DNA from: a virus
DNA length: 22,272 bases
IMG/VR virus record: IMGVR_UViG_3300046812_000468
Span: 1 to 22,272 of that record
Strand: one strand, 5' to 3'
In this document: positions 1-17,006 of the stretch, piece by piece
Layout: every line of letters begins with the position of its first letter
How positions within the stretch are numbered: position 1 is the stretch's first letter
Position numbers and translations under genes: made by a program
Notes under the pieces: model-generated
The model's input: the letters and a program-made list of their open reading frames with translations, nothing else
The model's database searches: none
What the model was told of the DNA's origin: nothing

Positions 1-2865
1 GCGACGACGCCCAACACCGGCAAATTCACCACGCTGTCCGCGACGTCGATCAACAGCACACCTATCGGCCCCACGACGCCCAGCACGGGCGCCTTCACCA
101 CTTTGAGCGCCAATGGCGCGGCGACGTTCACAGGCTCGCTGACGGCCTCGCCAGCCAGCGCCAACGTCACGTTTTCACCGACCGGCACCGGCACGGTCAC
201 TATCAACCCGGCGACCCTCGGCCACATCGACAACACCGCTGTCGGCGCGACCACACCCAGCACAGGCGCATTCACTAATTTGTCCGCGACCGGCACGGTG
301 TCGGGCGCCGGTTTCACCACGCTGCTGAATCCTTATGCGCTGGTCAATTCGCAAGTCTTCACGGGGACGCCCTCGCTGCCGACCGGCACGATTGGCGTGA
401 CGCAGGCGACGGCCACCAACAACACGACGCTGGCGACTACGGCCTTCGTCAAGGCGCAGGCTTATCTGACCGCCAACCAGAGCATCGCGCTGACCGGCGA
501 TGTTACCGGGTCTGGAGCCACGTCCATCGCCTCGACGGTGGTGCAGCTTCAGGGCCGACCGCTCGCCGCCACCGCGCCTGTCAGCGGCAACCTGATGGGC
601 TGGAACGGCTCGACGTGGGGTCCGGTCGCGGCTGGCGCGGTGTCGGCTGGCGGCACCAACGGCCAGATCCAGTACAACAACGGCGGCGTCCTCGGCGGCT
701 TGACGCTGAACGGCACCGGCAATCCGGTTGGCACGACCAGTCCCACTTTCGCAGGCTCGGTGGTTATCAATGGCACGGCGCTCGGCAGTGTCGCGGGCAA
801 CTCGCAGATCATCTTCTCGCCGGGTTCAACCGACACCAATGGCGAGGCGCTGCGCACGGAAATCCAGCGCAAGTCGGCAGGATCGGATTGGAGCACCGCC
901 GCTTGGCAGATCTACCGTCAGGTAGACGCCACCAAGATGGGTTATCTGGAATTTGGAAATGGAAGCTCCAAGCCGATAGCTTTTGGCAATGGCGTCACTG
1001 AATTTATGAGTTTAGACAACACTGGATATTTGAATGTTCTTAAAGGCGTGGGCGCTGGCGGTAATATAACTAGCTCTGTTGCTAACGCCGCTCTCATTGT
1101 GAGCAAGACGGCCAGTGGGCAAAATGCGTCTGTCTACGGTCAAATCAACGCGCTTAATCGTTGGCAAATGTCGCTGGCCGACGTTGCTGCGGAAAGCAGT
1201 GGCAACGCAGGGTCTAATTTTTCAATAAACCGCTTCAACGACGCCGGAACATACATTGACACGCCGTTTGCGATCAATCGCGCTTCTGGCATCTCTATAT
1301 TTTCGCAGGCGGTTGCTGCTGCGAGTTACACGGTAAACGCCCTAGCCGCTACCGATGCCGCTCTTTATCTAAATAAGCCTGCATCTGGTCGAGCTTCAAC
1401 TGTGTACGGCCAGATGGCTGGCTCCACTCGCTGGGGCATGAACTTTGGCGACAGCACTGCTGAAGCTACCGGCAGCGTCGGGTCCAATTTCGGCCTAGCC
1501 AGATTTGACAATACGGGCGCGTTCATCGACACGCCGTTTCAGATGATTCGCTCGACAGGTCAGGCGTATTTCACTCAGGCGCTGAACGCTCAAGCAGGCA
1601 TCATCATAAATTATGCGAATCCGGTCATTCTTATCGGCAAAACCGCCAGTGGACAGAGCAACTCCATTTACGGGCAGACCGCTAATGTCACCCGCTGGCA
1701 GCAACAATTAGGAGACGGTACGGCTGAAGGCGGCAGCAATCTTGGCTCCAATTATGTGCTGTCCACTTATTCCGACGCGGGTGCTGCTGTAGGCAATCCG
1801 TTAGTTATTGAACGCTCTTCTGGCTATATCCGGTTAAATGGCAACGGAGCCACCCCTACCGCAGCATCTACTGCGCCTTTTGGTCACAGCCAGATTGTGC
1901 TCAACAAGGCTGGATCGACAAAAACATGCAATATTGTTGGTCAAAACAACGGTTCGGCTAGATGGGAAATCGATATTGGAAATACCATTGCAGAGAGCGG
2001 CAGCAATGCCGGATCTGATTTTGCCATAGCAAGGTTTAGTGATACTGGTGCAGGTATAGACTATCCGTTATCCATACTTCGCTCAAGTGGCACTGTAACT
2101 ATATCTGGGTCCGCCGTGATTGGCAGCAATGCTACCGTTAGCGGAAATCTTACATCTGGCTCACTTGCTACAACAGGCGGTCAGGTAACAATATTCCAAC
2201 AGTCAGGTAATTCTTTTTTGAATGTGTGCGACAGCGCCGGTAACAACGGCGGCTCATACAATATGTGCGTTCGCGGACTTGGCAGCGCGTTTGCCGCTCA
2301 AGTTAACATGAATGTATTCACTATTGCAGCCGCATCTACTGTTTGCAATGGAAATCTATCCCTAACCGCCGTCAACACTAGAGTTGACTCCCTCGGCGGC
2401 TTTTTGTGCCGGTTTGGACTTAACGGCAGCGCGCTCGGCAATGTGTTCAGCATCGCCTACAACTCTGGCCCCACATACATTTACATCGACACTACCAACA
2501 TGGGAGCGGTGACGTTTACGTCCGACTACCGCATCAAGCAGAACATTGCGCCGCTGCCGTCGATGTGGGACCGCGCCAAGACGCTGAATCCAATTCGCTA
2601 TGAGCATAAGGATTGGACGCCCGAATGGGCGACGCCGAAGGAAAACGGCGACGCGCCAGATCCGATGTTTGTCGCGGATGGCAAAGAGCGGTGGGGCTTC
2701 GTCGCGCACGAGCTTCAAGAAACGCTGATCGAAGACGCGGCGACTGGCGTCAAGGATGAGCAGAACCTGATCCAGTCGCCCAATCCGTGGACAGTGATCG
2801 CCGTTCTCACCAAAGCATTGCAAGAGGCAATGGCGCGCATCGAGGCGCTGGAGGCAAGAGCATGA
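1..2865 (+). CDS. Tail fibre / tail spike with C-terminal S74 chaperone domain (5' partial)
   Basis: The frame is open from the first base, so the gene starts upstream of the window. The N-terminal visible part carries degenerate repeats of the type TTPSTGAFTxLSAxG (near 1, 70 and 247), common in phage fibre shafts, followed by the TTLATTAFV-type segment near 427. Between about 1084 and 2113 lie four units of about 89 residues. The C-terminus has an S74 intramolecular chaperone domain: SDYRIKQNI near 2521, GFVAHELQE near 2698 and a final coiled-coil-like helix EAMARIEALEARA. In this family the domain drives trimerisation and usually cleaves itself off between Ser and Asp. Its role is inferred to be host-receptor contact at the virion surface. 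It overlaps the endolysin start in an ATGA. The repeat region is visibly richer in A/T codons than either end. Confidence 0.88.
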   Translation, partial: ATTPNTGKFTTLSATSINSTPIGPTTPSTGAFTTLSANGAATFTGSLTASPASANVTFSPTGTGTVTINPATLGHIDNTAVGATTPSTGAFTNLSATGTVSGAGFTTLLNPYALVNSQVFTGTPSLPTGTIGVTQATATNNTTLATTAFVKAQAYLTANQSIALTGDVTGSGATSIASTVVQLQGRPLAATAPVSGNLMGWNGSTWGPVAAGAVSAGGTNGQIQYNNGGVLGGLTLNGTGNPVGTTSPTFAGSVVINGTALGSVAGNSQIIFSPGSTDTNGEALRTEIQRKSAGSDWSTAAWQIYRQVDATKMGYLEFGNGSSKPIAFGNGVTEFMSLDNTGYLNVLKGVGAGGNITSSVANAALIVSKTASGQNASVYGQINALNRWQMSLADVAAESSGNAGSNFSINRFNDAGTYIDTPFAINRASGISIFSQAVAAASYTVNALAATDAALYLNKPASGRASTVYGQMAGSTRWGMNFGDSTAEATGSVGSNFGLARFDNTGAFIDTPFQMIRSTGQAYFTQALNAQAGIIINYANPVILIGKTASGQSNSIYGQTANVTRWQQQLGDGTAEGGSNLGSNYVLSTYSDAGAAVGNPLVIERSSGYIRLNGNGATPTAASTAPFGHSQIVLNKAGSTKTCNIVGQNNGSARWEIDIGNTIAESGSNAGSDFAIARFSDTGAGIDYPLSILRSSGTVTISGSAVIGSNATVSGNLTSGSLATTGGQVTIFQQSGNSFLNVCDSAGNNGGSYNMCVRGLGSAFAAQVNMNVFTIAAASTVCNGNLSLTAVNTRVDSLGGFLCRFGLNGSALGNVFSIAYNSGPTYIYIDTTNMGAVTFTSDYRIKQNIAPLPSMWDRAKTLNPIRYEHKDWTPEWATPKENGDAPDPMFVADGKERWGFVAHELQETLIEDAATGVKDEQNLIQSPNPWTVIAVLTKALQEAMARIEALEARA
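1084..2113 (+). repeat. Four tandem ~89-residue repeats in the fibre shaft
   Basis: Protein-level repeats within the fibre gene. Each unit has the pattern (S/N/G)K-x-ASG, then YGQ or VGQ, then RW, then AE-x-x-(S/G)N-x-GS(N/D), then a (R/Y)(F/S)(N/D/S)-x-(A/T)GA stretch, then P, then R(A/S)(S/T)G. The conserved (S/N/G)K position falls at 1102, 1372, 1636 and 1903, giving periods of 90, 88 and 89 codons. DNA identity between units is low, so the repeats are old or under protein-level selection. They probably form successive structural blocks of the trimeric shaft. Confidence 0.8.
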
Positions 2866-7801: not shown

Positions 7802-8290
7802 ATGGAAGACATCAGGGTTCGCATAGGCGGCCCGGCGGACGTCCATAATTTCATGGATCTGACTTTCTTGTGCTCGGAAGAGAACGGCCTGCTGGCGCCG
7901 AGCACGGCAAAAATCCTGAATGAGGTGTGGGCCAGCCTGAACTATAACCGCGGCTTGATTGGCGTGATTGGCGAGCCCGGCGAGCTGCTCGAGGCGGGCA
8001 TTTTACTGCGCGTCGACAGCATGCCGTATTCGGATGAGCAGATCCTATGCGAGCGCGCGATCTTTGTGCGGCCGGAATTTCGATCGGCAAAAGGCGGCCG
8101 GGCCAGTCGACTGTGTGAATTTGCCAAGAGCACGGCTGACAAACTCGAGATGCCCCTGCTTATTGGTGTTTTGTCAACACATCGCGCTGCTGGTAAGGTG
8201 CGCCTATACGAGCGCCACTTCGGAAAACCCGCCGGAGCCTATTGGCTCTACGGCGCAAAAACTGGCCATACATTTGAGATGGCGGAGTAG
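7802..8290 (+). CDS. GNAT-family acetyltransferase-like protein
   Basis: 162 residues; AAGGA eight bases before the ATG, three-base gap from the previous stop. The fold pattern of GNAT enzymes is visible: an N-terminal strand-helix (IRVRIGGPADVHNFMDL), central strands (LIGVIGEPGELLEAGILLRV), then the acetyl-CoA motif region IFVRPEFRSAKGGRASRLCEFA (residues 87-108), where RSAKGGRA replaces the usual R/Q-x-x-G-x-G/A loop. It ends with a KVRLYERHFGKPAGAYWLYG segment like the family C-terminus. Such genes occur in the structural regions of some phages and may modify a virion or host protein. The substrate cannot be told. Confidence 0.7.
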   Translation: MEDIRVRIGGPADVHNFMDLTFLCSEENGLLAPSTAKILNEVWASLNYNRGLIGVIGEPGELLEAGILLRVDSMPYSDEQILCERAIFVRPEFRSAKGGRASRLCEFAKSTADKLEMPLLIGVLSTHRAAGKVRLYERHFGKPAGAYWLYGAKTGHTFEMAE

Positions 8291-8295
8291 AGGCC

Positions 8296-11200
8296 ATGGG
8301 CGGGAAAACTCAGCAATCCAGTCAGCAAGTTTCGATCCCGCCCGAGGTGCTCGCTCGATATAATAGCGTCAATGCGCAAGCTCAGCAGACCGCACAGACG
8401 CCTTTCCAGCAATATTCGAGCGATCCAAACGCTTTTGTCTCGCCGATGACAACAGCCCAGAATTTTGGTCTCCAGCAGACTGCCAACTACGCCAATGCCG
8501 CGCAGCCGGGCATTCAGGCTGGCATGGATATGACGCAAGCCGCCTCCGGCGCCGCCAATCCGGGCGATTTGGGCGCGGATCAGATCAACAAATACATGTC
8601 GCCTTACACATCGAACGTCACCAATCAGATGACGGCTCTGATGAACCAGCAGAACCAGCAGGCGCAATCCGGCCAGATGGGCAACGCCATGAAGAGCGGC
8701 GCCTTTGGCGGCGATCGCGCTGGCATAGCGGCGGCGAACCTCGGCGGGCAGCAGGCGCTGGCCTATGGCAACGCCATGGCTCCGGTCCTCCAGCAGGGCT
8801 ACAACACGGCGTTGCAGACCGCGCAGGGCCAGCAGGCGATCGGTCTGCAGGCCCAGCAAGCCAATCTGGCGCGCATGATGCAAGGCGGCCAGCAGATGGC
8901 CGGTTTGGGCACCGCTGGACAGACAGCGGGGCTCGCTGGGGCGCAAGCGATGATGGGCGCCGGGCAGGTGCAGCAGCAGACCCAGCAGGCCGGTCTCACG
9001 GCCCTCTACAACCAATTCCTGCAGCAGCAGTCCTATCCGTTCCAAGTCTCGCAATTCCTCGCGAACATTGCGGAAGGCACCGGCGCGCTGTCCGGCCAGA
9101 CCACGTCGACCACACAGCCCTCGAGCTTCTTCTCCGATCGACGGCTCAAAGAAAACGTCAAGCGCATCGGCACCGCCAAAAACGGCCTGCCGATCCACAG
9201 CTTCAATTACAAGGATGATCCGGACAAACTCACCCGGCTGGGCTTTATGGCCGATGAAGTGGAGCACAAGCACCCGGATGCGGTCGGCCTTGCGGGCGGC
9301 TATAAGACGGTCGATTACGGCCGCGCTGTCCGCTCCAGCGGCGGCGGCGTGGTGACCGACTTCGATCAAGGCCGGGCCTACGGCCGCGGCGGCTATGAAG
9401 ATGGCGGCCTCGCCAGTCCATACAATCCTTGGAATCAAATTGTCACTAGAGAGGCTCAGCTTGAAAGCGGTGCTGGTTTGGCGGGCGCGCCGAGCAATGA
9501 TCCATACACTTCGGCCAATCGTCACGTGCCCAAACAATCGGCGAGCGGGCCGCAGCAGCGCAGGCTGACGCCCGGCCAGATGCCTCCACAACAAAAGACC
9601 GGTTTGCAGACAGCAGGCGATCTTTTGCAGAAAGGGGTCTCTGGTTACAAAGACATCAAGGGCATGGCTGGTGACGCCAAGGACATGTATCACGACATGA
9701 CCGGCGGGGCTAAACCAGCTGCTCCGGAGACTACAACCCAAGCTCCAGCTGCGCCAGCGGCTCCAGCTGCGCCAGCAGCATCAACTCCAGCTGCAAAAAA
9801 TCCGGCCGTGGGTTCGGGGGGCAATTATTTCAGCATTTCTGAAGCAGAACCGGCTGCAGTAAATCCAACGGCGCCAGCGACAAACGTAGCTGAGCTGCTT
9901 CCGACCGATGGAGCTTCTGAAGGTCTGGGCGCTGCGGCCAGTGCTGTTTCCGATGTGATGCAAACTGCGCGCGGCGGGCGTATCGGTCGCGATATGGGCG
10001 GCGGTTTGCTGCCGCTCAATGCGCCCAGCGGCGTCAATATGCAGCCGAGCCCTGCGGTGATGGATGCGAGGATGCGGCAGAACACAGCGCCAACATGGAG
10101 CGGTCCTTTTGCGCGTGGCGGTCTGGCCGATGGCGGCCAGCCGGTTCTCGGGGCGCCTGCTGCAGGCGTGCCTGACGTCGTCGCGCCGACAGAGGCTTAC
10201 AAGCAGGGTCTGGGCGAGGCGCAAGCGGCGCAGGCGCACGCCAACGAAATGCAAGCGCAGATGCACGCCACCGAAGCGGCAGATCCTTTCAAGTATTCGC
10301 CCGACCTGTCTCCTTTCGGCGAGACGCTTCTCGGGGCGGGCGCGATGCAGAATGCGCAGGCGTTTGGCGGCATGGGCAAATACAGCCCGACTTACAGCAA
10401 CCAGCTTTTTGCGCGCGGCGGCCTTGCCGATGGCGGCGACGTCATCCCGGGTGAAAGTAGCGGCAGCGGCGGTCTCGACATTCCCGATGATAAAAGCTGG
10501 CAGCAGGACAAAGCCGAGCAGAAGTCGATGGAGCCCGCGCCGCAAAAAAGTGGCGGCGACAGCGGCGGCGGCGGGCTTGGAGCAATCGTTGGTCTAGCGA
10601 CCAAGATCCTCCCCATGTTTGCGCTTAACAGGGGCGGCTTTGCCGAAGGCGGCGGCGACCCCGATGTGGCCGCTGTCGGCAATGCAGATCTGCCGGGAAC
10701 GCGCGAAGATGCAGAGGCAAAAGCCATAGAGGACAGGAAAACCTTCGGCGACTTGCCGCATGAGGAACCGAAGAATTTGAGCCTTGGCGACATGCCGACA
10801 TCATTTGCGCGCGCAAAAGACGCCGGAGACGACCAGCCCGTGGCCGATCGGAATATGGCTCCGCCTGATTTTACGGCCAAAGCCCCAGTCCCCAGCGGCC
10901 CGCCGAAGCCGTTTGACGAATACACGCCGACCGCTGGTCTGGCTGGCGCGCAAGATAGCTCGGCCAATCGAGGCATGGCTCCGGCTGGCTTCACGCCCAA
11001 TGATCGCAGCGTGACTGACGTGAGTCCATTTACCGGGCCATCAGTTGGTGCAGCGCAAGATCGGTTTGAGGCGGGCTTGGATAAGCCTCGCGCCCAGATG
11101 CCGGGGCTCAATCCGCAAACCGCCATCAAGGCGCTCAATGCCGAAGACATGGCCGACATGTCGCCACCAAAATCGACCATGCGCGTGCTGCCTGAAACTG

Positions 11201-11892
11201 CGCCATCGCCGCCGCCGACCGCGGGCGGAAAGTTGCCGCTGCCGCCTGTAATGACCGCGGCTGCTCCCACTACAGCTCATGGCGACAATCAGGTGCGCGC
11301 CTATGCGCCGAAGCAGCCCTCGGCCGCCGATGCGCCAGCGTCACAGGCGATACAGCCGCATCTGGTGCGTACTGTTCCGGTGCAGCGGCCTGCAGTTCCG
11401 CCGCCGCCGATTCAGCAATATCAGAGCAGTCCGGGCATACCGATGAAGCGCAACGTGCATCCCAATTCGCCTGCGACGATTCACAGTTACGATGGCTGGC
11501 AGCCGCCGACCGTTGGACAGGTGTTCCAGCGCGCCGGTGAAATCGCTCGCCAGTACGGCATAAACCCGACTCTCTTTCAGCGCATGATCCAAGAGGAAAG
11601 CGGCGGCCTGATCGACAACATGGGCGACAACAAGTCTTCGTTCGGCCTGATCCAAGCGCACTTTGGTGGCATGAATCCCAGAATGCCGCACTCGGGCATG
11701 GGCGATGACATGCGTCGAGCTGGCATCAATGTTTTCAATCCGAAGACGTGGGAGGATCAGCTCAAGTTTGCGGCCAATCACATTGCGCGCAATGGATCCA
11801 AAGGATGGGCCGCATGGACGACCACCATGAGGAAATTGGGCTATAATTACGCTTCGGGCGGTCTCGTGCCGCGCAAGACTGAAGAGGTTTGA
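8296..11892 (+). CDS. Large ejection protein: internal S74 domain and C-terminal lytic transglycosylase
   Basis: 1198 residues. Residues 1-280 are Gln/Ala-rich and helical (many QQ and AQQ), the kind of sequence that can form helical bundles. Residues 281-350 carry an S74-like segment, SDRRLKENVKRIG with GFMADEVEHKHP and DAVGLAGGYKTVDYG. A long Pro/Ala/Gly linker follows, with repeated RGG-x-x-x-GG motifs. The C-terminus from about residue 1071 is a soluble lytic transglycosylase domain: QEESGG with catalytic Glu near 1101, then SSFGLIQ and a Trp-rich end (GSKGWAAWTT). The role is inferred by analogy with T7 gp16: leaving the capsid and opening a path through the peptidoglycan for DNA entry. 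An internal S74 domain is unlike the usual terminal placement. Confidence 0.8.
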   Translation: MGGKTQQSSQQVSIPPEVLARYNSVNAQAQQTAQTPFQQYSSDPNAFVSPMTTAQNFGLQQTANYANAAQPGIQAGMDMTQAASGAANPGDLGADQINKYMSPYTSNVTNQMTALMNQQNQQAQSGQMGNAMKSGAFGGDRAGIAAANLGGQQALAYGNAMAPVLQQGYNTALQTAQGQQAIGLQAQQANLARMMQGGQQMAGLGTAGQTAGLAGAQAMMGAGQVQQQTQQAGLTALYNQFLQQQSYPFQVSQFLANIAEGTGALSGQTTSTTQPSSFFSDRRLKENVKRIGTAKNGLPIHSFNYKDDPDKLTRLGFMADEVEHKHPDAVGLAGGYKTVDYGRAVRSSGGGVVTDFDQGRAYGRGGYEDGGLASPYNPWNQIVTREAQLESGAGLAGAPSNDPYTSANRHVPKQSASGPQQRRLTPGQMPPQQKTGLQTAGDLLQKGVSGYKDIKGMAGDAKDMYHDMTGGAKPAAPETTTQAPAAPAAPAAPAASTPAAKNPAVGSGGNYFSISEAEPAAVNPTAPATNVAELLPTDGASEGLGAAASAVSDVMQTARGGRIGRDMGGGLLPLNAPSGVNMQPSPAVMDARMRQNTAPTWSGPFARGGLADGGQPVLGAPAAGVPDVVAPTEAYKQGLGEAQAAQAHANEMQAQMHATEAADPFKYSPDLSPFGETLLGAGAMQNAQAFGGMGKYSPTYSNQLFARGGLADGGDVIPGESSGSGGLDIPDDKSWQQDKAEQKSMEPAPQKSGGDSGGGGLGAIVGLATKILPMFALNRGGFAEGGGDPDVAAVGNADLPGTREDAEAKAIEDRKTFGDLPHEEPKNLSLGDMPTSFARAKDAGDDQPVADRNMAPPDFTAKAPVPSGPPKPFDEYTPTAGLAGAQDSSANRGMAPAGFTPNDRSVTDVSPFTGPSVGAAQDRFEAGLDKPRAQMPGLNPQTAIKALNAEDMADMSPPKSTMRVLPETAPSPPPTAGGKLPLPPVMTAAAPTTAHGDNQVRAYAPKQPSAADAPASQAIQPHLVRTVPVQRPAVPPPPIQQYQSSPGIPMKRNVHPNSPATIHSYDGWQPPTVGQVFQRAGEIARQYGINPTLFQRMIQEESGGLIDNMGDNKSSFGLIQAHFGGMNPRMPHSGMGDDMRRAGINVFNPKTWEDQLKFAANHIARNGSKGWAAWTTTMRKLGYNYASGGLVPRKTEEV
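9385..11866 (+). repeat. Repeated RGG-x-A/E-D/E-GG short motif in the ejection protein
   Basis: Within the 1198-residue protein the motif appears as GRGGYEDGG (about 9385), ARGGRIGRDMGGG (about 9967), ARGGLADGG (10111), ARGGLADGG again (10411, exactly 300 bases later), NRGGFAEGG (about 10627), and a weaker ASGGL at the end. The two ARGGLADGG copies use different synonymous codons for Arg, Gly and Leu, so similarity is held at protein level. Related forms occur in the 226-residue protein (HAEGGKTG) and near the end of the 747-residue protein (HARGGKVGG). The purpose is unknown. Confidence 0.65.
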
Positions 11893-11894
11893 CG

Positions 11895-13589
11895 ATGGCC
11901 GACGCTCCTGCTCCCGCCCTCGACAACAGCACGGTGTTTGCGCCGCCAACGGACGCTGGAGGCGACACGCTGCTTTCCAACGCCATGAAATTTACCGCAC
12001 CGGCCGATGCGGGGCCTGCCGCCGTGCGCTCCGCTCGTTCAGCGCCTGCCACGGATCCAAACACATATCCGACCACCGCCAAATACAGCGACACCTATTC
12101 CGGCGGCAAAGGCCCAGACGAGACGACCAACCAAGCTTTGAAAGTGGCCAACGCCGCGACCGAAGGCGGTCCAAATTGGATGGACAAGCATCGGAGCATT
12201 GTCATCCCCCTCCTGTCAGGATTGGGCGCGATGGCCTCATCTGACAGCCGCTACCTTGGCTCGGCGGTCCTTCAGGGGCTTGGAGCTGGCGCTCAAGCCT
12301 ATGGCAAGGAGCGTGACGAAGAAATGGGGCTCGCGCAGCACGCCCTCAAAACTGGCGAGCAGGGGACCATCATTGGCCAGAACCAGCAGCAGATCAAAGA
12401 GAGTCAGGCTCGTGAGGCGGGCGAGCGCGCGTCCAACTGGCAGCGCGGCACTATCACGCAAAACTGGGCGGGCACGCCTTTCACCGCTCACATCTGGGAC
12501 ACGCCAGAGGGACCGATGGTCGTGAAAGACGTGGATGCGGATGATTTCCGCAAAATGTACCCCAAAGCTGCTTGGCGCGACCCCAACACGCCCGGCGCCA
12601 TCAATGCTCCGCAGTGGAATAACCCCAGCGTGAAAACTGGAGCTGCAGCGCCGGTCGTGAAAGACGATAGTGGTGCTCCGGTTGTGAAACCCGAAGTTGA
12701 AGCGCCGGTCGTGAAAGACTCTAGCGGCAATCCGGTCGTGCGGAGCGGCGCGCGCACTGCAGACGTCACCAAACCGACCCCCGGGCAGCTGCCGCCGGGT
12801 GTTCTCTATCCGCAGGAGGCGCTTGATAAAGACCGCACTGAGCAGGCGTTCAGCCCGCGAAACAGTTCTACGGCTGCGGCTTCTAAAGAGTTGAGGACTC
12901 AAGCGCAGGTTGATTCCAACGTGACGAAGGAATCGGACAGCCGCCTGAAATCGTATGCTGCAAAGGTTGCTGACTCGATTTTCAAAAAGCAAGGCGGCAC
13001 TGGAGCGAGCACCATTGAACCGTTGTGGGGCGCTTATGTGACGGCGCTCAAGGCGGCTGGTTTTACGGGGGATGTTATTAAATACACCGATGCTGAATCT
13101 GCGCGGGAATTTATGGCCAAAAACCAAGCAACCTTGTCTGGCATAGCTGCAAATTCTGTCGGGCAAAAGTCAAATGCCGCGCGTGAAGCTTTGGCTATTG
13201 CACTGCCCAATCTCGACATGCAGCCCGATGTCCGGGCCGATATGATGGCGGGGCTGATAACAGACCAGCAGCGCGTTAAAGACATTCATGCGGCTTATGA
13301 TTATTCGGACGCCAAGGTGCCGAGCAACAGCCGCACCTACCAGCACGTCGTCGACAATTACGACAAAGCCAACGGAGACCGCAATATTGCGGCCAAGCAC
13401 CAAATATCTGCTTTGCTGCAGGCCGATAACGATTTTGCCACGCGAGCGTTCAGGGGCGAATTTACGGCGGATCAGATCGAGCGTCACCTATCGGGTAACG
13501 GTGACCCGAGGAGAGCCTTTCCCGGTTATGATCCCAGCTTGCAAATTTCGCGCTTCTTCCCGCACAAAGTCCCGAAGCCGAAAACCTAA
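11895..13589 (+). CDS. Putative internal virion / ejection protein
   Basis: 564 residues from the ATG with AGAGG upstream; an in-frame TTG two codons earlier is less likely. It is Ala/Gly/Pro rich, with an unstructured N-terminal 90 residues, a Gly-rich hydrophobic patch (IVIPLLSGLGAMASS and GSAVLQGLGAGAQA near 100-135), a charged Gln/Glu/Arg helix (residues about 140-180), a Val/Lys/Pro-rich tandem repeat and a helical C-terminal half. There is no signal peptide and no catalytic motif I recognise. Its size and place between two other large proteins, directly after the transglycosylase protein, suggest an ejection-channel component comparable to T7 gp15/gp14. The family is not identified. Confidence 0.65.
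   Translation: MADAPAPALDNSTVFAPPTDAGGDTLLSNAMKFTAPADAGPAAVRSARSAPATDPNTYPTTAKYSDTYSGGKGPDETTNQALKVANAATEGGPNWMDKHRSIVIPLLSGLGAMASSDSRYLGSAVLQGLGAGAQAYGKERDEEMGLAQHALKTGEQGTIIGQNQQQIKESQAREAGERASNWQRGTITQNWAGTPFTAHIWDTPEGPMVVKDVDADDFRKMYPKAAWRDPNTPGAINAPQWNNPSVKTGAAAPVVKDDSGAPVVKPEVEAPVVKDSSGNPVVRSGARTADVTKPTPGQLPPGVLYPQEALDKDRTEQAFSPRNSSTAAASKELRTQAQVDSNVTKESDSRLKSYAAKVADSIFKKQGGTGASTIEPLWGAYVTALKAAGFTGDVIKYTDAESAREFMAKNQATLSGIAANSVGQKSNAAREALAIALPNLDMQPDVRADMMAGLITDQQRVKDIHAAYDYSDAKVPSNSRTYQHVVDNYDKANGDRNIAAKHQISALLQADNDFATRAFRGEFTADQIERHLSGNGDPRRAFPGYDPSLQISRFFPHKVPKPKT
12648..12740 (+). repeat. Tandem APVVKD repeat, 51-base period
   Basis: The string gcgccggtcgtgaaaga occurs at 12648 and again at 12699, in frame. 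It encodes APVVKDDSGAPVVK followed by APVVKDSSGNPVV. A half-unit copy (GAPVVKP, GNPVVRS) lies inside each. It is a recent small in-frame duplication in an unstructured linker of the 564-residue protein. Confidence 0.85.
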
Positions 13590-13604: not shown

Positions 13605-15848
13605 ATGGCTGCGACTGTTGTTGATAACGGAGATGGGCCAGAGCCCGTATATGATTTCAGCAAGGCGGCGCCGGGCGCATCGACGGCTGCTCCAGCAGCT
13701 GGCTCGGGTGAGGCACCGGCGGAGCCTGTCTATGATTTTTCTAAAGCCAAAACTACTCTGGCGTTGCCGGGAGTGAGTGAACCGGTCGACGATCGACCGA
13801 CCACAAGCGACGCTTATAAGCCGATCTATCCGGTGAGGCCCAATGAGCCGTGGAACGAGGTGCTGGCCAGCGCACCCGCCAACATACCCAGCAGCGCCGC
13901 AAGGGTGGTGGCGGGCACTCGCAATGGCGTGGTCGATACTCTTGCCGCGGGGAACCCGGTCGGCGATATGGTGGGCGCCTATAGCGGCAGCAAAGAATCA
14001 GCGTCGCGGCTCGCCAATAATCCGCTCGTGCGCGGCGCGGGCACCATAGCCGCCGCTTATCAAAACCCCGGCAGCGTCATCGAAGGCGCGAAAAAGGCGG
14101 CCACTGACTTTGGCCATAAATGGTTCACCAGCGAGGGCTGGAAGAAAAACATCGGCGAAAACATGGTGGAGACGGGGCTCGACCTTGCGCCGCTCGGCGG
14201 CGCGGCTTTGCGCGGCGTGCGCGGAGCTGCGGCGATGCGCGGGGCTGAGTTGGCCAACGATTCGCGATTTGCTTCGACGCTTTCCACGGCCTTGCCCGGC
14301 ATTTCTCCGGCTGATCTGACTCCTGCGCATCTCGATGCGATCGCCAGAAACATCAACGTAAAAGGCTTCACACCTGCCGCCGTGCGCGAGGCAGTCATGC
14401 AGCAATCTACCGGCGTGTCGCCGCCTCGAGGCGCGGCCACTGGTCATGCGCCTGTTGAAGGCGCTGAAAAATCAGCGGAGACCCGGTCGTCCGCTGGGGC
14501 CGCTGCAGCAGGCAACCGGCTGCAAGGCATGGCTGGTCCGGCGTGGCAGCCTACCGATCTTGGACAGGCATGGCATGACGCCCGGACTGCAGCCAAAACA
14601 AACACCAGAACGGATTATGAGGCTTGGAGAAATCAGCCGGGCGAATTTCATCCTGACGCGGCCAACGAACTTAGCGAAGCGGCGCAGCAAGGCGCGGAAG
14701 GCGCGCACCGGCACTTCGGCGACATGGATTATGCGCGCAATAATCCGGCGACAGCCACAACACAGAGGGCGCTCGACGATTTCCACAACCAGCTGGCCAA
14801 TCCGCTAAACGGACATTTCGATCTGCAGCATATCGATGATGCACGTCAACAACTTCGCAAATCGACGAAGGGAGAGAGCCCTGCTGACAGGCGCGTTGTC
14901 GAGGCGGCCATCACCGGCATGGACAATAAACTTGGGCAGGTCGTCAGCGACCCCACGCTGTTCAATAACAGCGCCAACGGCCCTGCAATTCACCAGCAGC
15001 TGCTGGACGCACGCTCATCTCACACTCATTACCAGACACATTATGGTCCTGATGCTTCGCCAGCAGTTGGAAGGGCAAACGGGTTTCTGGACGCCAGCAC
15101 TGGACCTGATTTGCATGGAGCTGGCACAGCACTAGAAAGCGCGCTTATCAATCCACGCACGGGCCCCGGGGTCTACAATCACATGGCGTCTGCAGGCATG
15201 GCGCCCACAGTGGATCAATATTTGCGTGATTCATTGTTGCGCGGCAATTCAGCCAAAGTTGACGCCATGTTGGCTTCGCCGGTGGGTCAGCACGTTTTCA
15301 GCCCCGAGGAGCAATCACAAATTCGCGTGACCAATGCCAGCCGCAAAGCATTTGAAGCGGAGCATGGAGAACCTGCGCCCTCTACGGTGGGGGAAAAAAT
15401 TGGAAGCATAGCCAAGCCCGCCATTATTGGTGGACTTACGGGTGCGGCGACTCACTATTTTTCTGGCAATCCGCTTATGGCAGCAGGCGCCGGTCTGCTC
15501 ACCGGCGGAGGTGATATTCTCTACAACCGCATGGGTAGCGCGGCGAGAAGGGAGTTGCGCGGCGCGCCTGCCTCTTTTGGTTACGGCGCCGGTAATGCTG
15601 CGCAGTTTGGGGCTGATGTTGGGACAGCTGCGGATCTGGCCAGAAGCCAAGAGGAGCATCGCGGACCGCCTTTCCGGCCGACGCATGCTCGAGGCGGCAA
15701 AGTGGGCGGCCACCAGCATCTGGTCGATCGCTTGTTCACTCATGTTGAGAGAGCAAAAAAGGCGGAGAAGGGCCGCACTTCGGTCCTCCTCCACCAGCCA
15801 GATGAACACATAGCTAAGGCGTTGAACGCCGCGCAGGCGGCTATTTAA
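13605..15848 (+). CDS. Putative internal virion / ejection protein with duplicated YDFSKA motif
   Basis: 747 residues; a GGAG site before the ATG and a 15-base gap from the previous stop. The N-terminus has EPVYDFSKA twice (about residues 13-21 and 40-48) with different codons, a motif I have seen at the start of other phage ejection proteins. A helical Ala-rich body follows, then a glycine-zipper-like hydrophobic segment near residues 598-640 (IAKPAIIGGLTGAATHYF, MAAGAGLLTGGGDILYN) that could insert in a membrane. The C-terminus has HARGGKVGG and HQHLVDRLFTHVERAKKAEK with a final DEHIAKALNAAQAAI, a helical end. It is inferred to be the third member of the ejection set. No enzyme motif is recognised. 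Confidence 0.65.
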   Translation: MAATVVDNGDGPEPVYDFSKAAPGASTAAPAAGSGEAPAEPVYDFSKAKTTLALPGVSEPVDDRPTTSDAYKPIYPVRPNEPWNEVLASAPANIPSSAARVVAGTRNGVVDTLAAGNPVGDMVGAYSGSKESASRLANNPLVRGAGTIAAAYQNPGSVIEGAKKAATDFGHKWFTSEGWKKNIGENMVETGLDLAPLGGAALRGVRGAAAMRGAELANDSRFASTLSTALPGISPADLTPAHLDAIARNINVKGFTPAAVREAVMQQSTGVSPPRGAATGHAPVEGAEKSAETRSSAGAAAAGNRLQGMAGPAWQPTDLGQAWHDARTAAKTNTRTDYEAWRNQPGEFHPDAANELSEAAQQGAEGAHRHFGDMDYARNNPATATTQRALDDFHNQLANPLNGHFDLQHIDDARQQLRKSTKGESPADRRVVEAAITGMDNKLGQVVSDPTLFNNSANGPAIHQQLLDARSSHTHYQTHYGPDASPAVGRANGFLDASTGPDLHGAGTALESALINPRTGPGVYNHMASAGMAPTVDQYLRDSLLRGNSAKVDAMLASPVGQHVFSPEEQSQIRVTNASRKAFEAEHGEPAPSTVGEKIGSIAKPAIIGGLTGAATHYFSGNPLMAAGAGLLTGGGDILYNRMGSAARRELRGAPASFGYGAGNAAQFGADVGTAADLARSQEEHRGPPFRPTHARGGKVGGHQHLVDRLFTHVERAKKAEKGRTSVLLHQPDEHIAKALNAAQAAI

Positions 15849-15995: not shown

Positions 15996-17006
15996 ATGGC
16001 GACCACATTCCTGCCAAACAAGCATATCGGCCAACCGGCCAATGGCGATCTGGGCTGGGATTCGCCGCTCAACACCAATTTCGCGATTATCGACGCCTGC
16101 CTCGGCTCGACGCAAAGCCTCACGCTCACGCCTGCCAAGAGTGATGTGACGCTCAATCCAACAGTGCCGCCCTACAACACCAGCGACCCGGCGCTGGCCA
16201 GCTATTTGTGCATGCGGCTCGTCATCTATGGTGCTCCGGGCAAGGCCAGCATCGTTCGCACTCCCGTTGGCGTTGCTGGCATGTGGGTAGTGATCAACGC
16301 CACGACCGATGGCCAGAACATCTATTTCGGCACTGCTTATGCAGTTGGGACTCCCGCCACTGTGCTCCTCGGCGTCAATGCAGAGGTTCTATGCTTTTCC
16401 GATGGCGTCAACACTTTCACGGTCGGCGGCGCCACCAACGTCGGCCAGCTTGCGGCGCCCGGCGATCTGAAAGCGAACGCAGGTCCGGGCTTACAGCAGG
16501 GCTGGATTTATTGCGACGGCAGGGCGGTCAGCCGCACCACTTATTCGGCGCTTTTTGCCGCCATCGGCGGCTATTATGGCGTTGGCGACGGCTCGACCAC
16601 TTTCAACGTCCCTGATCTGCGCGGGCGCGTTCTTGCCGGGTCGGATGATGGCGTAGGGCGTCTCAGTGGTTTCTCCCTCGCGGTTTCTAGTGGCAGTCAG
16701 ATATGTCAACTGACCGATCCCGGCCAGCTGCCGTACCACAATCATGGCGGCGGCGATCACGCTCACGGCGCGTCACAAGCAGGGCACCAGCATAGCGTCG
16801 GGGGAATCCTTTCTAACGCCAATCAAGCGCCCGGCGCTCAGTATGGTCCCAGCTGGCAGTTCCAAACCGTTTACACTGACTGGCAGCAGCCTGCCGTGTA
16901 TATCGGCAACAGCGGCGCCATCATAGGCGGGGCGGGCAGCAGCAATCCAGTTGCCAACATCCAGCCCACGACCGCCGTGCATTGGTTTATTTACGCTGGC
17001 GTCTAG
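15996..17006 (+). CDS. Tail fibre / adhesin with phage collar domain
   Basis: 336 residues; GAGGA upstream of the ATG. The N-terminus (LPNKHIGQPANGDLGWDSPLN) is a virion-attachment-type segment. Residues about 165-215 form a phage tail collar domain: GWIYCDGRAVSRTTYSALF, then GVGDGSTTFNVPDLRGRVLAG. The following HNHGGGDHAHG and AGHQHS are His-rich, as in metal-binding fibre trimers such as T4 gp12, where His residues coordinate ions along the trimer axis. It ends with NPVANIQPTTAVHWFIYAGV, the usual end of collar proteins. It is the second receptor-binding candidate in the window. Its stop codon shares bases with the stop of the convergent GcrA-like gene. Confidence 0.82.
   Translation: MATTFLPNKHIGQPANGDLGWDSPLNTNFAIIDACLGSTQSLTLTPAKSDVTLNPTVPPYNTSDPALASYLCMRLVIYGAPGKASIVRTPVGVAGMWVVINATTDGQNIYFGTAYAVGTPATVLLGVNAEVLCFSDGVNTFTVGGATNVGQLAAPGDLKANAGPGLQQGWIYCDGRAVSRTTYSALFAAIGGYYGVGDGSTTFNVPDLRGRVLAGSDDGVGRLSGFSLAVSSGSQICQLTDPGQLPYHNHGGGDHAHGASQAGHQHSVGGILSNANQAPGAQYGPSWQFQTVYTDWQQPAVYIGNSGAIIGGAGSSNPVANIQPTTAVHWFIYAGV

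Follow-up and report, generated by a model that had tools for sequence, protein, structure and literature searches.

A minimal S74 domain, candidate autoprotease, inside a family of phage ejection proteins

A long ejection-protein gene in the window (the whole stretch of viral DNA analysed here, 22,272 nucleotides of IMG/VR record IMGVR_UViG_3300046812_000468) carries an internal, minimal S74 domain, which we lean towards reading, from its sequence and by analogy with characterised S74 proteins, as a compact, coiled-coil-free autoprotease of the intramolecular chaperone (ICA) type, located where two parts of an ejection protein join. In fibres, S74 domains are familiar as tip chaperones that release themselves. 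The pared-down form described here is better conserved than any other part of a widespread ejection protein; it marks the place where two genes are either separate or fused, and some members have two copies of it. In the proposed scheme, Ser280 of the folded domain, activated by Lys285, would cut the F279-S280 bond and free residues 1-279 as a helical ejection-protein piece of 28.9 kDa, while the C-terminal piece (residues 280-1198; 919 residues, 95.3 kDa) would keep the S74 core, the linker and a probable wall-degrading domain. Such a split into two products is plausible from the sequence; the cutting, its timing and the roles of the pieces are what we infer. The family is already recognisable with Pfam and named by automatic annotation, and what we rate as new is an S74 domain that is minimal, internal, located in ejection proteins and sometimes present in two copies. 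If the reading is correct, both a coiled-coil-free S74 autoprotease and an ejectosome polyprotein strategy would be undescribed in the literature searched, in which we found no paper that interprets S74 in connection with ejection proteins or internal virion proteins.

Layout of the ejection protein and its S74 domain

The 1198-aa ORF (8296..11892, + strand, as for all of its parts) comprises an N-terminal ejection-protein domain, the minimal S74 domain, a low-complexity linker and a C-terminal domain. The N-domain (residues 1-262, 8296..9081) is predicted to be mostly helical, at low to middling pLDDT. The sequence-only reading had called this part Gln/Ala-rich, which its composition bears out (19.4% Q, 16.5% A), and had assigned the protein to the ejection type, in agreement with matches to phrog_6121 (virion structural protein; residues 63-346, E 4.4e-18) and phrog_4287 (DNA ejection protein; residues 1-343, E 4.3e-10). 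Both matches stop shortly past S74, where the profiles (392 positions) are nearly exhausted, whereas the window protein runs about 850 residues further. A spacer (residues 263-279, 9082..9132), with Phe-Phe right before Ser280, leads into the minimal S74 domain (residues 280-345, 9133..9330).

That an S74 domain lies inside this ORF had also been claimed beforehand, and Pfam confirms it: PF13884 (Peptidase_S74) matches residues 280-330 over profile positions 1-57 of 58 with 28.7 bits (E 1.6e-6), above the curated cut-off of 22 bits. The isolated minimal domain scores 34.6 bits against the same profile, and of 62 relatives aligned, 61 reach E <= 0.001 with it. Ser-Asp and Lys are retained, as first noted, in SDRRLK at residues 280-285 (nt 9133-9150); the motif was correctly seen but starts at residue 280, one earlier than the 281 originally given, and a cut at the predicted scissile bond F279-S280 (9132/9133) would give a first piece of 279 residues instead of 287. 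Ser280, the predicted nucleophile, is encoded at 9133-9135 and Lys285 at 9148-9150. A chance or artefactual S74 call is ruled out by the above-cut-off score, by recurrence in relatives and by the motif-blind search described below.

The extension of about 850 residues after S74 gave no Pfam match at E <= 0.01. It consists of a fast-evolving linker (residues 346-1050, 9331..11445), which includes the most hydrophobic 19-residue stretch of the protein (residues 759-777, 10570..10626), and a conserved C-terminal domain (residues 1051-1198, 11446..11889). RGG(L/F/Y)(A/E)(D/E)GG motifs lie within the linker at residues 364, 607, 707 and 779 (window 9385-9408, 10114-10137, 10414-10437 and 10630-10656), and similar RGG/GG motifs are dispersed in the extension of many relatives, including those without S74. 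A missed stop codon is an unlikely source of the long frame, since most loci, L001 and L013 among them, have the same open fused frame, in other assemblies and in one complete genome record.

A transglycosylase had been read near the C-terminus, some 800 residues after S74. This was not confirmed for the window protein: the C-terminal domain gave no Pfam match to PF01464 (SLT), and hhalign against the SLT domains of relatives returned a probability of 7.5%. The region matches phrog_19890 (unknown function) at E 0.0015 and is lytic-enzyme-like by eye (QEESGG), a probable wall-degrading domain. PF01464 follows S74 in L013, L146 and L095, and is found in none of the window protein, L106, L024 and L017. 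Identity to the window's C-terminal domain is 80% in L106 and 14-27% in L024, L017, L095 and L116, and the domain thus looks exchanged among close relatives; over the N-domain and S74, these last four are 66-92% identical to the window.

Fused relatives and split counterparts

Viral contigs were scanned with the whole protein, with the N-domain plus S74 and with the N-domain alone, and genome contigs were also scanned; 157 N-domain loci were obtained, of which 104 are non-redundant. S74 is present in 90 of these 104, a proportion to be read with two features of the scans: the N-domain-plus-S74 and genome-contig scans are biased towards loci with S74, as their queries contained it, and the N-domain-only scan ranks loci by similarity to the window. 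With S74 in so many members, usually right after the N-domain and followed by 700-1650 more residues, an internal S74 is the rule of the family rather than the anomaly it was first taken for, and a one-off insertion in the window is ruled out. Complete fused S74-bearing ORFs are 1064-1931 aa long, and one complete member with S74, L170 (phage OH, 380 aa), is split. Against 50,697 phage records, tblastn returned two matches, one being the 'internal virion protein D' of MW202675 (L013), over residues 1-341. This protein has the fused layout of the window protein, with S74 at 277 and SLT at 601-694; it differs in that the SLT is confirmed and lies about 275 residues past S74, and its 56% identity to the window covers the N-part only. 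A plasmid search gave no match.

No S74 was found in 14 of the 104 relatives, or in 13 when L101, whose locus meets a contig end, is left aside; in most of these 13, the end of the N-domain runs straight into a Gly-rich linker. The complete S74-less relatives are still fused, so a cut at this place is not essential for the fusion, and we count these 13-14 relatives against cleavage. Loci of this kind are L004, L097, L135, L136, L139, L142, L144, L145, L156, L158, L163 and L164. On a tree of 99 N-domains, a minimum of 6 gains or losses of S74 is required, 5 of them forced by starred branches, and one versus two copies needs at least 7 changes among 60 complete ORFs (8 with two). The S74 module has thus been lost or gained repeatedly.

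Two internal S74 domains occur in 11 of the 104 relatives (L037, L044, L049, L056, L060, L063, L083, L084, L098, L125 and L160). The second lies mostly directly behind a hydrophobic stretch similar to window residues 759-777, a correspondence drawn by eye. Its origin as a recent tandem duplicate is unsupported, the identity to the protein's own first copy being 40-74% (a range for proteins that truly have two S74 domains, leaving out L098_640, L100, L102 and L170, with longer or distant N-domains).

Ten regions round S74 matches were opened in records of cultured or named phages, besides MW202675 and Bradyrhizobium ppBeUSDA76-2. In RHph_N2, PAE2, pCB2047-C, OH, EBPR podovirus 2, Mwe-JY13, phiGT1 and two Vibrio phages, the S74 protein has about 270-380 aa and ends 61-72 residues past the Ser. 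The S74 protein of CRP-212 is longer (594 aa) and ends similarly, and the 367-aa protein of ppBeUSDA76-2 ends 70 residues past its Ser. The gene that follows the split S74 protein adjoins it directly or shares a few bases with it (14 in one Vibrio phage, 41 in the other), and is annotated as a peptidoglycan hydrolase, as an internal virion, injection or DNA injection protein, as a tape measure with hydrolase, or as hypothetical. Because the split phages end right after S74, with the next gene adjoining, the window protein looks like an S74-ending protein fused to its downstream neighbour, a fusion read from the layout and not from homology of the C-terminal part. The S74-ending proteins of the podoviruses (Sulfitobacter phiGT1, pCB2047-C, EBPR podovirus 2, Rhizobium RHph_N2, Pseudomonas PAE2 and Ochrobactrum OH) share the minimal S74 and its dyad with the window protein but differ in carrying S74 at the C-terminus and in having a separate gene for the peptidoglycan-hydrolase or injection protein. 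In these split relatives, the same cut would only trim a tail of about 65 residues, so that split and fused genomes would yield the same N-terminal piece.

Just upstream of the S74 ORF lies an acetyltransferase-like gene (7802..8290, + strand), whose counterpart by position in MW202675 shares 51% identity with it, and annotated acetyltransferases occupy this place in several cultured podoviruses. BLASTP of this gene and of the tail-tube gene against phiGT1 found no similarity, and synteny with phiGT1 is therefore one of annotation and gene order only. Among shared gene families, one paper names 'an acetyltransferase, a chaperone of endosialidase, a lysozyme' and leaves them uninterpreted; chaperone-of-endosialidase genes are listed in alphaproteobacterial phages (PMC10783043). 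The main text of the phiGT1 paper mentions neither S74 nor cleavage, the Sinorhizobium AP-20-A paper does not mention S74, and the Ochrobactrum OH paper does not mention mass spectrometry.

Conservation of the Ser-Lys dyad and selection on S74

Across 94 distinct domains, with a mean pairwise identity of 57% (minimum 29%), only S280, D281, K285, G292 and G316 are invariant. Because these domains had been gathered using the motif, a motif-blind profile was rebuilt without residues 280-286 (the first seven) and used to search the 14,455 ORFs of all loci. Ser and Lys(+5) were present in 113 of 113 distinct domains scoring at least 10 bits (107 minimal, 6 classical), with no Thr, Asp or Ala replacing dyad residues, the remaining bias being that the training set of the blind profile came from motif-bearing domains. 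Of these, 105 were scored by script and eight were read by eye, namely L084 and L168 (both minimal) and the six classical fibre domains. Diverged S74 copies of 28-52 bits are among the 113. The residue before Ser (P1) is F in 77 of the 107 minimal domains; 96 have F, L, W or I there.

The S74 domain is under purifying selection. In comparisons of the window with L106, L024, L017, L095 and L116, its dN/dS was 0.039, 0.096, 0.102, 0.053 and 0.115, respectively; in the same pairs, the N-domain gave 0.198, 0.172, 0.165, 0.228 and 0.201 and the linker (residues 346-1060) 0.32-0.47. All of these values are rough because dS is high (0.7-1.9 for S74). S74 has the lowest value of the named domains in 5 of 5 pairs, and the 17-codon spacer is lower in one pair. 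These figures bear on the idea that the domain is a mere passenger of gene fusion, in which an ancestor ended in S74, as in PAE2, pCB2047-C and phiGT1, and the domain was left in place when that gene fused with the downstream hydrolase gene. The split genomes do end exactly past S74, and S74 is absent in several lineages. A passenger would, however, sit poorly with the lowest dN/dS of the named domains, with an extra second copy in 11 of 104 relatives, and with a search for decayed copies that found none among the relatives and ORFs covered; we regard it as very improbable. Counted in favour of cleavage, as sequence evidence, are the PF13884 match, the slowest evolution among the named domains in the five pairs, the constant Ser and Lys(+5), the mostly hydrophobic P1, and the split counterparts that end after S74.

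Predicted fold, cleavage and neighbouring genes

An AlphaFold2 model of window residues 1-353, built from 65 sequences, predicts a compact beta-rich S74 core with good confidence (pLDDT about 84-93 over residues 281-340; mean 80 for the domain modelled alone). The predicted elements are a short helix (281-284), strands at 285-293, 299-305 and 313-316, a helix at 319-325, strands at 330-333 and 336-339, and a final five-residue helix. The N-domain model is helical and mostly below pLDDT 80, and no upstream beta-helix stalk is seen in it: its first strand of at least three residues starts at 285 (confidence low to middling). The alpha1 collar and the C-terminal alpha4 coiled coil, through which tailspike and MYRF S74 domains trimerise, are absent from the minimal S74 in alignment and models; both are present as sequence, by eye, in the six classical domains and in the window's fibre.

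Aligned with hhalign, the minimal and classical S74 profiles match at 98.5% probability, and their dyad segments line up. A profile search of the PDB placed MYRF (7dc3), 6f45 and 3gud first (E 0.0017-0.0068, with 7dc3 at 0.0017). Structure comparison was less decisive on whether the predicted fold is unrelated to S74, the outcome that the sequence-only reading had named as telling against it: Foldseek gave no PDB match at E <= 0.001 and no S74 structure among its best 50, but VIA realignment of 999 Foldseek PDB chains put 7dc3_B (Z 3.4, rmsd 2.8, 57 residues) and 3gud_B (Z 2.9) on top. Both are weak by the scale of the tool; the comparison speaks weakly for S74, and the faintness of this modelled match to solved S74 structures is counted against cleavage. 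In BFVD, 25 matches reached E <= 0.001, and most of the named ones are ICA proteins; since the top match, a 1329-aa uncultured-phage protein, is named 'Intramolecular chaperone auto-processing domain containing protein', long S74 proteins are already labelled in databases. A LysM-domain protein from a Megaviridae environmental sample (A0A5J6VJJ1) also matches the minimal S74 in BFVD (E 6.3e-6, rmsd 1.1, 66 columns), and on this model comparison the minimal form may occur outside phages. Two further searches were set aside: that with the 353-residue model was uninformative, giving generic helical matches only (up to Z 6.8), and a PDB search with the A3 profile gave recA fusion matches that were repeat-summed noise, with 6f45 and 3gud sub-threshold.

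The S74 domains (PF13884) of endosialidase, GA-1 gp12 and the T5 fibre share with the window domain SDxxxK, the core strands and the G-x-x-A-(Q/D)-(E/D)-V segment. Unlike these, the window domain has about 65 residues, follows a helical domain rather than a beta-helix, is succeeded by about 850 residues, and has no alpha1, tentacle or alpha4 coiled coil. In Bdellovibrio Bd3182, a classical S74 domain cuts itself, and its SDxxxK is named as the catalytic motif (PMC10769870). The ICA of MYRF (7dc3), the best PDB profile match and VIA row, is internal like the window domain, with functional parts on both sides as proposed for the window protein. Its Ser and Lys are five apart, it frees the N-terminal part and so separates two functional parts, and S587A or K592A abolishes cleavage (PMC8326128, PMC3742440); the cut-site segment threads a hole lined with aromatic and hydrophobic residues (PMC8326128). 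By analogy, both precedents are counted for cleavage. MYRF differs in keeping the alpha4 triple coiled coil, which is needed for cleavage: the reaction requires a trimer, driven mainly by alpha4 (PMC8326128). By the same analogy, the missing alpha1 and alpha4 argue against cleavage in the window protein, and they make trimerisation by its internal S74, as originally read, doubtful.

Three options may be considered, namely cleavage without a coiled coil, an N-domain that supplies the oligomer, and a domain that does not cut, the last being in our judgement the least likely because both catalytic residues are fully retained. A non-cleaving core could instead mediate docking or oligomerisation and so place the enzyme part on the ejection complex, with the protein acting at full length. 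The loss of the trimerisation helices, the existence of fused relatives without S74 and the confidently predicted core would suit such a module, but a docking fold need not retain both catalytic residues, and their strict presence in all 113 domains leaves this explanation rather unlikely; were it true, a kept Ser-Lys dyad would no longer imply cleavage. Assembly quality control is a sub-case of cutting, in which the cut would come only after the N-domains oligomerise, the N-domain replacing alpha4, and would report correct ejectosome assembly instead of just dividing a polyprotein. It follows known S74 logic, where cutting comes after correct trimer folding (PMC8326128), and suits an N-domain predicted to be helical; however, with that model mostly below pLDDT 80 and the oligomeric state a conjecture, we consider it improbable. 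Cleavage by a coiled-coil-free S74, our preferred reading, would explain how two ejected proteins arise from one gene and would offer a self-cleaving tag of about 65 residues. Its extension to a large podovirus-like class, whose ejection machinery would mature by autoproteolysis as polyproteins divided by one or two miniature coiled-coil-free S74 domains, in the virion or during ejection, is more tentative, and we entertain it seriously without quite expecting it.

The window holds two S74 domains, as had been stated from the outset. The other is classical and ends the fibre/spike ORF 1-2865 (2521..2862, + strand; residues 841-910, 24.6 bits), with SDYRIK kept and alpha1- and alpha4-like segments. 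This ORF, open at its 5' end, contains several repeats of about 75-90 residues by eye, and phrog_29706 (tail spike) matches four stretches of it. After the S74 gene, ORFs 11889-13589 (566 aa) and 13605-15848 (747 aa) have no Pfam or PHROG match and, by position, are possible further ejection proteins. Downstream of the ejection genes, ORF 15996-17006 carries a Phage Tail Collar domain (PF07484, E 7.8e-20) and is a second fibre-like gene.
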